Below, in pieces: positions 36,257-38,382 of a stretch of 64,000 nucleotides of DNA. Below the pieces are notes generated by a model. It was not told where the DNA came from and ran no database searches. It saw nothing but the letters and a program-made list of their open reading frames with translations. Each line of letters starts with the position of its first letter. The stretch's first letter is position 1. Position numbers and translations under genes: made by a program. Source of the DNA: Candidatus Gastranaerophilales bacterium (GTDB lineage: Bacteria; Cyanobacteriota; Vampirovibrionia; Gastranaerophilales; Gastranaerophilaceae); contig CALURI010000002.1 of assembly GCA_944323135.1 (NCBI GenBank), forward strand, positions 1 to 64,000. The letters run 5' to 3'.

Positions 36257-37525
36257 TTATTTAGCGTCTACTATTTTTTCTGCAGGAGCTAAACCAGGTT
36301 CCAAATCAGAACCGGTAATCAATTTTCGGAAGGCAAATTGAGCTTTTGGCAATACATAAGCCAATAAGAAACTGCTTAATGCAACATTTGTTAAAATATT
36401 TGCAGATTTTGCAATTTTTGCTGACTTTATATATAAACTAAAATCAGAACTATTTAAAGATTTTTTTGAAAATGCTTCTATATCATTTCTAAATTTGCCA
36501 AGTTTTTTTATATCAACATATTCTCTTGGGTCTCTAATACCGCTATCAAGCATTTTAATCTTATTAAATTTATTTGCATATTTTACAAATAATGTATCTT
36601 TATTTTCTATATTATCAACAAACTTTAAAAGTTCTTCTGCAGAATCGTTTGCAGGGAGTTTCAACGTTTTATCTTTAATTTGCTCTGCAAATTCTTTATC
36701 AGCTAAAATAATTGGATCGAGCTCAACACCTGTTAAAATATTTAACCCTTTTTCAATCCACTTAGGAGCTACAAAATTCAAAAACATCATACCTGCCATT
36801 TTAAAAGATAGATCATAACGCTCATTTTTGTTCCGTGCAGTTGCAACACGTCCGACAGCATACCCGCCGTCTGTCACAGCCATTTTATCCTGAGTAGAAA
36901 AGTTTGCAGCTTTAGTTACCCAGCTACCGGTAAAATTAACATCTTTTGATTTATAAAATCTTTCTTTTTGCAAGAAACTTACAGGCGAAATATTTTTCTT
37001 TTCAGCTTCTTTCTTTCTTAGATTATCAATTTTTCTTGCAGAAGATGCAAAAATTAATTTCGGGAGAATAAATCCCATAAATAAAATCGGAATTGACGTT
37101 GAAGCAATAAATTTCCCAGCAAGAAGTTTTTCATATAATTTTTTATTTTCTTTTGCTTTTAATAAATCTTTTACAGCTTCAGGAGCAATATCTTTAAATT
37201 TTTTAATATTATAATCAACTCCTTGAATTCCTTGTTCTTCCTTAAATAATTTTAAATTAACAGTAGGATTTAAACCTCTTGCTTTAATATATTTATCACA
37301 AAGCCAACCTACAAGAGGAATTCCACCTAACCAAACCGCAGATGTTGCATATTCATCAAGAAATCTTTCACGAGCTGCCAAATATGCAATCCCTTTTGAC
37401 TCTTTTTTATTCTGATTATAAGTAAGAACAATTTTTGTCGGGACTTCAATACCACAGTCACGAACGATTAAGGGGTATACACTGCTATTATTACCTATTG
37501 CTGAAATAATACTTGTTATAGTCAT
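36257..37525 (-). CDS. Hypothetical membrane-associated protein with internal VNFTG motif
   Basis: Not recognised; 422 aa. Hydrophobic segments occur around residues 65-80 (VWLGGIPLVGWLCDKY), 155-175 (IPILFMGFILPKLIF), 250-265 and 375-400 (ILTNVALSSFLLAYVLP), with long charged helices between and KSKDVNFTGSWV near residue 205. Resembles the 24119 and 25600 proteins in style. It has a GGAG ribosome-binding site 11 nt from ATG. Its 5' region (37553-37717) is unusually structured, with three hairpins. Confidence 0.6.
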   Translation of the reverse strand: MTITSIISAIGNNSSVYPLIVRDCGIEVPTKIVLTYNQNKKESKGIAYLAARERFLDEYATSAVWLGGIPLVGWLCDKYIKARGLNPTVNLKLFKEEQGIQGVDYNIKKFKDIAPEAVKDLLKAKENKKLYEKLLAGKFIASTSIPILFMGFILPKLIFASSARKIDNLRKKEAEKKNISPVSFLQKERFYKSKDVNFTGSWVTKAANFSTQDKMAVTDGGYAVGRVATARNKNERYDLSFKMAGMMFLNFVAPKWIEKGLNILTGVELDPIILADKEFAEQIKDKTLKLPANDSAEELLKFVDNIENKDTLFVKYANKFNKIKMLDSGIRDPREYVDIKKLGKFRNDIEAFSKKSLNSSDFSLYIKSAKIAKSANILTNVALSSFLLAYVLPKAQFAFRKLITGSDLEPGLAPAEKIVDAK

Positions 37526-37552
37526 ATTTTTTTAATTCTCCAATTATTAATC

Positions 37553-37717
37553 AGGATAAATATCCTTAAATAGTCTCACCTAACGCTTCTTAACGGGGGC
37601 TCCTTGAAAGACTATTTTGAAAGAATTGAATTTTTTATTCTTTAAAAGCGCGCAACATCAATTCATAGCCTTCCAAGGTTGCTATGATGATGTAAATGAT
37701 GAAATTTTAAAGAATAA
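37553..37717 (-). ncRNA. Candidate structured RNA: three consecutive hairpins in the 5' leader of 36257-37525
   Basis: Reading leftward: hairpin 1 has 13-bp arms TTATTCTTTAAAA / TTTTAAAGAATAA (37635-37647, 37705-37717) enclosing nested ACATCA/TGATGT, CATAG/CTATG and CCTT/AAGG helices. Hairpin 2 has 9-bp arms AAATAGTCT / AGACTATTT (37568-37576, 37609-37617) around a GC-rich loop (GGAGCCCCCGTTAAG in part). Hairpin 3 is AGGATA/TATCCT (37553-37566). The last hairpin ends 28 nt before the start codon. It does not match a riboswitch consensus I know. Which strand is transcribed is inferred from the downstream gene. Confidence 0.5.
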
Positions 37718-37780
37718 AAGTTTAACATTTGATTTCCTTATTGATAAAATACTAACTTAAAAATTAAATTTTGGCAAGAG

Positions 37781-38311
37781 TTATTTATTACGTTTTGCTA
37801 AAGATCTGTAATAATCAGTCCAAAAACTTTCAATTAAAAGAGATTTTTTTGTAAGTTCTTTTTCTATCTCAAGCCTTTTCGCATAGAGATTATTACGAAA
37901 ACCTTTAGTTTCTATATATTTTGCCTTATAATCATTTTCTAAAGCTTTATTTAATAAACCAAGCTCATCTTTATTTATATTTTGGAAAGCTTCTTTTAAG
38001 CTACTACCTTTTACTTTTAAAACTCTAGGTTTAACATTTTCCAATCCTGGAATAAAAGAAATTTTGTTAACTGCAGACAATACAAATTCTGCAGATTTAT
38101 CTTTGATATTATACAATCCATCCGACAATACAAAAAAATCTTTATTTACATTTGCGATTTTTTCAGCTTTTTCAAAAACATCAGAAAATTTTGCACCGTC
38201 AGCCAAAACTTTTTTTGCCAAATCACAATTGATTCCGCCTGAAAATGAAACAGAATTTACATTTGATTTATTACTAGTGATATTATTATTTTGAATTTTA
38301 TTTACCAACAT
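37781..38311 (-). CDS. Hypothetical protein with N-terminal SVSFSGG motif
   Basis: Not recognised; 176 aa. ATG 38311 has GGAGTG 8 nt upstream, preferred to an in-frame upstream start at 38359. It begins MLVNKIQNNNITSNKSN, followed by VNSVSFSGGINC, the motif recurring in several hypotheticals. The remainder is charged helix with a short hydrophobic stretch around residue 75. No signal peptide seen. Confidence 0.6.
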   Translation of the reverse strand: MLVNKIQNNNITSNKSNVNSVSFSGGINCDLAKKVLADGAKFSDVFEKAEKIANVNKDFFVLSDGLYNIKDKSAEFVLSAVNKISFIPGLENVKPRVLKVKGSSLKEAFQNINKDELGLLNKALENDYKAKYIETKGFRNNLYAKRLEIEKELTKKSLLIESFWTDYYRSLAKRNK

Positions 38312-38382
38312 ATTTGTTACACTCCTATTTGTTACATAAACATAAAATCGGTAAATCAAAATTCTTGCGCAAAAATAGCTTT

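Follow-up and report, generated by a model that had tools for sequence, protein, structure and literature searches.

The intergenic DNA preceding a minus-strand membrane-protein gene in the window, the whole 64,000-nucleotide stretch analysed here, very probably encodes a ribosome-mediated histidine attenuator that derepresses the downstream protein, for which a transport function is only probable. On the computational evidence, the assignment of the element itself to the His-codon attenuators appears nearly certain, and a role of the target protein in histidine acquisition is moderately favoured.

A Conserved Histidine-Rich Leader Precedes a Single Membrane-Protein Gene

An earlier sequence-only reading had pictured this region as a structured RNA of three hairpins 5' of the membrane-protein gene. 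A repeat search recovered the inverted repeats that it described: the 9-bp stem with a GC-rich loop is present at 37568-37576/37609-37617, the outer hairpin exists with 15 perfect pairs (37633-37647/37705-37719) rather than the 13 given, and the palindrome at 37553-37567, credited with 12-nucleotide arms, exists but is short, its perfect arms spanning about 6 nucleotides. The structured RNA is cis-regulatory with respect to the gene, but it does not consist of three independent hairpins, as its helices are mutually exclusive. The leader open reading frame (ORF), part of which is taken in by the outer hairpin, had been overlooked, and the interval first delimited lies within a larger functional unit of about 37526-37780 that also comprises the putative promoter, the leader ORF and the gene's Shine-Dalgarno (SD) sequence (Table 1). 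In agreement with the initial view that the RNA belongs to no nameable riboswitch class, no Rfam family matches the region: at gathering score there was no match, His_leader included, in the window or in five relatives, His_leader is not among the weak matches in the window, and neither a T-box nor an Rfam metabolite riboswitch was found at gathering score or as a weak match up to E 10 within 37500-37800.

Table 1. Components of the putative attenuator and its target gene
Feature	Position	Strand	Basis and remarks
Candidate sigma-70-like promoter, TTGCCA-17-TAGTAT	37749..37777	-	Scan match 9/12, not above chance alone; boxes conserved in 29 relatives
Leader ORF SD sequence, AAGGAAA	37733..37739	-	Sequence; purine-rich box likewise placed in many relatives
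Leader ORF, 21 aa, MLNFYSLKFHHLHHHSNLGRL	37663..37728	-	His-rich leader before every ortholog examined
Regulatory stretch CAU CAU UUA CAU CAU CAU, five His codons	37684..37701	-	3-7 His codons per leader
Segment 1 (His codons plus AGC), potential partner of segment 2	37680..37692	-	Minimum-energy fold
Segment 2, CCUUGGAAGGCUAU and GAAUUG	37659..37678	-	2:3 helix covaries (78 compensatory cells)
Segment 3, CAAUUC ... AUAGUCUUUCAAGG, common to both alternative helices	37602..37628	-	Covariation of both helices
Segment 4, GAGACUAUUU, 3' arm of terminator-like hairpin	37568..37577	-	3:4 covaries in 7/10 pairs
Small extra hairpin AAGGAUAUUUAUCCU replacing the U-tract	37553..37567	-	Window; similar in L002 and L005
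Membrane-protein gene SD sequence, AAUUGGAG	37538..37545	-	Predicted to be masked by segment 3 when OFF; co-changes with segment 3
Regulated gene, 422-aa helical membrane protein, histidine-free	36257..37525	-	No Pfam, NCBIfam or PDB sequence family; AlphaFold pLDDT 80

The intergenic DNA was matched in 43 of 146 related genomes (E up to 0.001, with some short chance matches among them), and every substantial match immediately preceded an ortholog of the gene at 36257-37525; the relatives that carry names are mostly MAGs of Gastranaerophilales, gut relatives of cyanobacteria. A covariance model of the leader matches 76 of 155 family genomes, all 76 of which have the gene, with 75 of the 76 matches on the gene's contig and strand and 72 of those 75 within 20 nucleotides of it. 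The gene-bearing family genomes missed by the model likewise have a His-rich short ORF upstream (16 of 16), the one in L198 containing just 3 His in 10 residues. Another genome, G053, gave a weak DNA match that was set aside, as it falls inside a dnaK gene.

Energy alone would place the element on the wrong strand, given that the plus strand folds better than its shuffled versions (z -3.8, 0/200) and the minus strand only weakly so (z -1.7, 15/200), and it is comparative evidence that assigns it to the minus strand. The plus-strand excess is what would be expected if the hairpins were a plus-strand small RNA, or chance AT-rich structure unrelated to the gene; we consider either exceedingly improbable, because the start codon, SD sequence, His codons, stop codon and position relative to the gene are conserved on the minus strand only, and because the element precedes one gene in all but one of the covariance-model matches.

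The leader is a conserved ORF, complete with start codon, SD sequence and stop codon, that was found before every ortholog examined. All 69 distinct upstream regions in relatives contain one, roughly 15-32 residues long and carrying 3-7 His codons, and histidine accounts for 20.9% of residues over 79 distinct leader peptides. CAT and CAC are both in use, gaps in the His stretch correspond to whole codons, and sequence outside the His run varies widely among relatives while the His codons are kept. The leader ORF is the sole one of its kind in the window, and no other His leader was found among the His-run pattern matches in its own genome.

Histidine runs bind metals, and the HHxHHH pattern could accordingly make the leader a sensor of zinc, nickel or copper or, alternatively, a sequence-specific arrest peptide whose nascent chain stalls the ribosome, with the switch responding to metals or stress rather than to the supply of histidine. 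In close relatives the peptide is indeed conserved as SLKLHH.HHHS.L.RL, partly outside the His run, as either role would lead one to expect. Outside the genus, however, the His codons stay and everything else in the peptide gives way to other sequence (MFTPSVKRHHHNHHHCH, MNTLLFTKHHHNHHIVPIRL, MTKILRQHHHSHPNPKGLGVLLSL), a pattern more in keeping with codon sensing than with an arrest peptide, and a metal sensor would leave unexplained both the histidine-free target and the association with absence of hisD and hisG described below. We therefore regard metal sensing or peptide-mediated arrest as highly unlikely.

Beyond the functional unit, the minus-strand frame 37781-38359 encodes a small, fast-evolving protein with a VSFSGG motif, which shares 32-55% identity between relatives of the genus; in many of these relatives it is missing or unrecognisable at the corresponding position.

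Mutually Exclusive Helices and the Proposed Switch

Helix covariation was evaluated over 51 aligned leaders, with shuffled and slid versions as controls. The helix between segments 2 and 3 (2:3) is paired in 90.6% of cells and shows 78 compensatory cells (31 in shuffles, 10-24 in slid versions), and that formed by segment 3 with segment 4 and the gene's SD sequence (3:4+SD) is paired in 92.8% of cells across the 51 leaders, with compensatory change at 9 pairs and in 57 cells (16 in shuffles, 5-23 in slid versions). Segment 3 and the SD sequence also change jointly between CAAUUC/GAAUUGGAG and CCGAUU/AAUCGGAG, with A-U replaced by G-C in 9 sequences. Since segment 3 is common to both, the 2:3 and 3:4+SD helices are mutually exclusive. 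The candidate protector helix 1:2, in which the codon run takes part, is paired in 80% of cells without covariation. Both conservation and covariation in relatives, the check that the sequence-only reading had proposed, are thus found, and computation establishes a leader with His codons, two exclusive covarying helices and a single conserved target.

Ribosome stalling and the direction of the switch we infer as follows. The minus-strand RNA would start near 37742, and a ribosome would translate the short leader with its five His codons. With ample charged tRNA-His, this ribosome is expected to reach the leader stop codon and cover segment 2, upon which segment 3 would pair with segment 4 and the SD sequence of the next gene (OFF); in that state, transcription would end where a U-tract exists, as it does in most relatives, and translation would be blocked. 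When charged tRNA-His is scarce, the ribosome would stall on the His codons, the 2:3 helix would form, and the gene would be expressed (ON).

In a simple folding model, the probability of 3:4 is 0.80 with the ribosome at the leader stop versus 0.54 with the ribosome stalled at the His codons, and that of the SD helix 0.82 versus 0.51; the rise with the ribosome at the stop holds in 46 of 51 sequences for 3:4 and in 47 of 51 for the SD helix (p about 1e-8). A direct test of SD accessibility over 68 sequences gave no significant difference (0.43 vs 0.39, p=0.17), perhaps because some copies depend on termination. For the window copy, predicted SD accessibility falls from 0.72 in the stalled state to 0.21 with the ribosome at the stop. 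A U-tract follows segment 4 in most relatives but is missing from the window copy and from some near relatives; termination is therefore unlikely in the window copy, and control there is probably translational only.

The Target Protein Nearly Lacks Histidine

The protein encoded at 36257-37525 has no sequence relative in Pfam, NCBIfam or the PDB, and fold searches with its all-helical AlphaFold model (pLDDT 80) gave at best E 0.3 with Foldseek and Z 5.7 over 182 residues (rmsd 4.6) with VIA-align, values that say little when the model is helical. As computed over 80 distinct orthologs, the protein is virtually devoid of histidine, with 7 His in 32,994 residues (0.02%) against about 1.45% in window proteins, and no other residue drops below 0.4-fold of the window average. 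Flanking controls retain histidine, at 1.2% in UDG orthologs and 2.9% in RelA orthologs; orthologs of the neighbouring DUF167 protein are also His-poor (0.27%), though this protein is short. Homologs of the target family without a His leader contain 66 His in 7,591 residues (0.87%). A product without histidine can be made during histidine shortage, and it has been described for biosynthetic enzymes that proteins required to recover from starvation for an amino acid contain little of that amino acid (PMC4209129).

Gene Presence and the Histidine Pathway

Across 155 family genomes, the gene is nearly excluded from those with the histidine pathway: it occurs in 2 of 40 genomes with hisD (histidinol dehydrogenase) and in 90 of 115 without it (Fisher p=5e-17). 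hisD is absent from the window genome and from every member of its genus that was sampled, whereas all genomes sampled from other families carry it. hisG, also lacking in the window organism, marks the same genomes as hisD but one and gives the same picture. Counted by genera, the association weakens (p=0.003), which shared ancestry would lead one to expect, but genera g21 and g41 each include both states. The control gene trpA was found only in hisD-containing genomes of the family, so that general prototrophy and shared ancestry explain part of the anticorrelation; among genomes lacking trpA, the exclusion nevertheless persists (2/23 vs 90/115, p=3e-10). As a separate observation, the window genome and most of the family lack trpA (PF00290), which suggests tryptophan auxotrophy there too.

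Because it is nearly confined to gut cyanobacterial relatives unable to make histidine, the gene probably helps to acquire it, and the membrane protein would probably import histidine or histidine-containing peptides in these presumed histidine auxotrophs. A switch that would respond to histidine shortage, a product without histidine and a missing pathway together make this orphan protein a strong candidate for a new histidine uptake system, even though 25 hisD-lacking genomes without the gene indicate that it is not the sole route.

Tentatively, one could instead envisage a histidine-responsive attenuator governing a protein with a different starvation role, for example in envelope remodelling or as a regulator or chaperone of another importer. 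Such a possibility is consistent with the lack of any sequence or fold relation between the protein and a transporter, with those 25 genomes that live without it, and with the occurrence of distant homologs in genomes that keep hisD, where the wider family must then have another role. The near-exclusion with both hisD and hisG, on the other hand, points to a substitute for histidine synthesis, and family homologs in hisD-containing genomes display neither the His leader nor the avoidance of histidine. In its most extended form, the histidine-acquisition reading would have the 422-residue protein found a new family of histidine-acquisition membrane proteins, His-free by selection and His-codon-attenuated, that replaces histidine biosynthesis in gut Gastranaerophilales, a composite proposal that we favour only marginally.

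Two genomes, G037 (locus L141) and G043 (locus L182), keep both hisD and the His-attenuated gene, the G043 leader containing 7 His (MRRNIINLHLHHHHLHHNVPRELWN), and may represent intermediate stages of a change from making histidine to taking it up. Inheritance of the attenuator from a his operon was considered and rejected, as 17 regions around hisD in hisD-containing family genomes are without such a leader; one suggestive ORF near hisD (L166) proved to be antisense to a carbonic-anhydrase-like gene.

Relation to Known Attenuators

The element resembles the attenuator of the enterobacterial his operon (Rfam His_leader) in its short leader, tandem His codons and exclusive antiterminator and terminator helices (PMC9413887). 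It differs in leader and RNA sequence, with no Rfam match, and in its target, here one orphan membrane protein and there biosynthetic genes; in addition, its predicted OFF structure also covers the target's SD sequence, and its host lacks hisD and hisG. Proteobacteria are known to have His leader attenuators, and others have been proposed in some Firmicutes (PMC9413887; PMC2965389), the latter candidates preceding his operons in the Bacillus cereus group, Peptostreptococcaceae and Erysipelotrichales (PMC9413887) and, in bacilli, hisZ and hisS* (PMC2965389). The Firmicutes candidates likewise combine a run of His codons in a short leader with subsequent alternative hairpins, but belong to another phylum and control synthesis, a synthetase or a known ABC-type transporter, whereas the target here is a membrane protein without known family in genomes without the pathway. 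In translational amino-acid attenuators, a structure that sequesters the ribosome-binding site takes the place of the terminator (PMC9413887), and the window copy is alike in that segment 3 pairs with the SD flank and the U-tract is missing; most relatives, by contrast, keep both the U-tract and the SD helix, so that the two outputs seem to coexist.

The mechanism is thus of a known kind, while the phylum, the target and the combined terminator and SD design are new here. An earlier survey stated that no reliable data on attenuation existed for cyanobacteria (PMC4833913), and a search of the open-licence literature on Gastranaerophilales with histidine or auxotrophy returned nothing on point, although a search limited to such papers could have missed an earlier report of an attenuator of this type. 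The element extends leader-peptide attenuation to non-photosynthetic relatives of cyanobacteria, and its various copies form a natural series along which the terminator is lost and SD sequestration kept. Read as a sensor, an anonymous intergenic region here serves to predict what an orphan protein family does in gut bacteria that are largely uncultured.

Paralogous membrane proteins are encoded elsewhere, in the window organism's own genome (G000:C2:103496-104707, outside the window; L207) and at L208-L222 and L224, and occur also in families that keep histidine synthesis. Upstream of these L207-type paralogs lies a different conserved short leader ORF ending in ...L(M)NLIWGL-stop (for example MINTRRITQANRKLVRIANLIWGL*), which lacks a His run, matches no Rfam family and is possibly another leader-peptide regulator.
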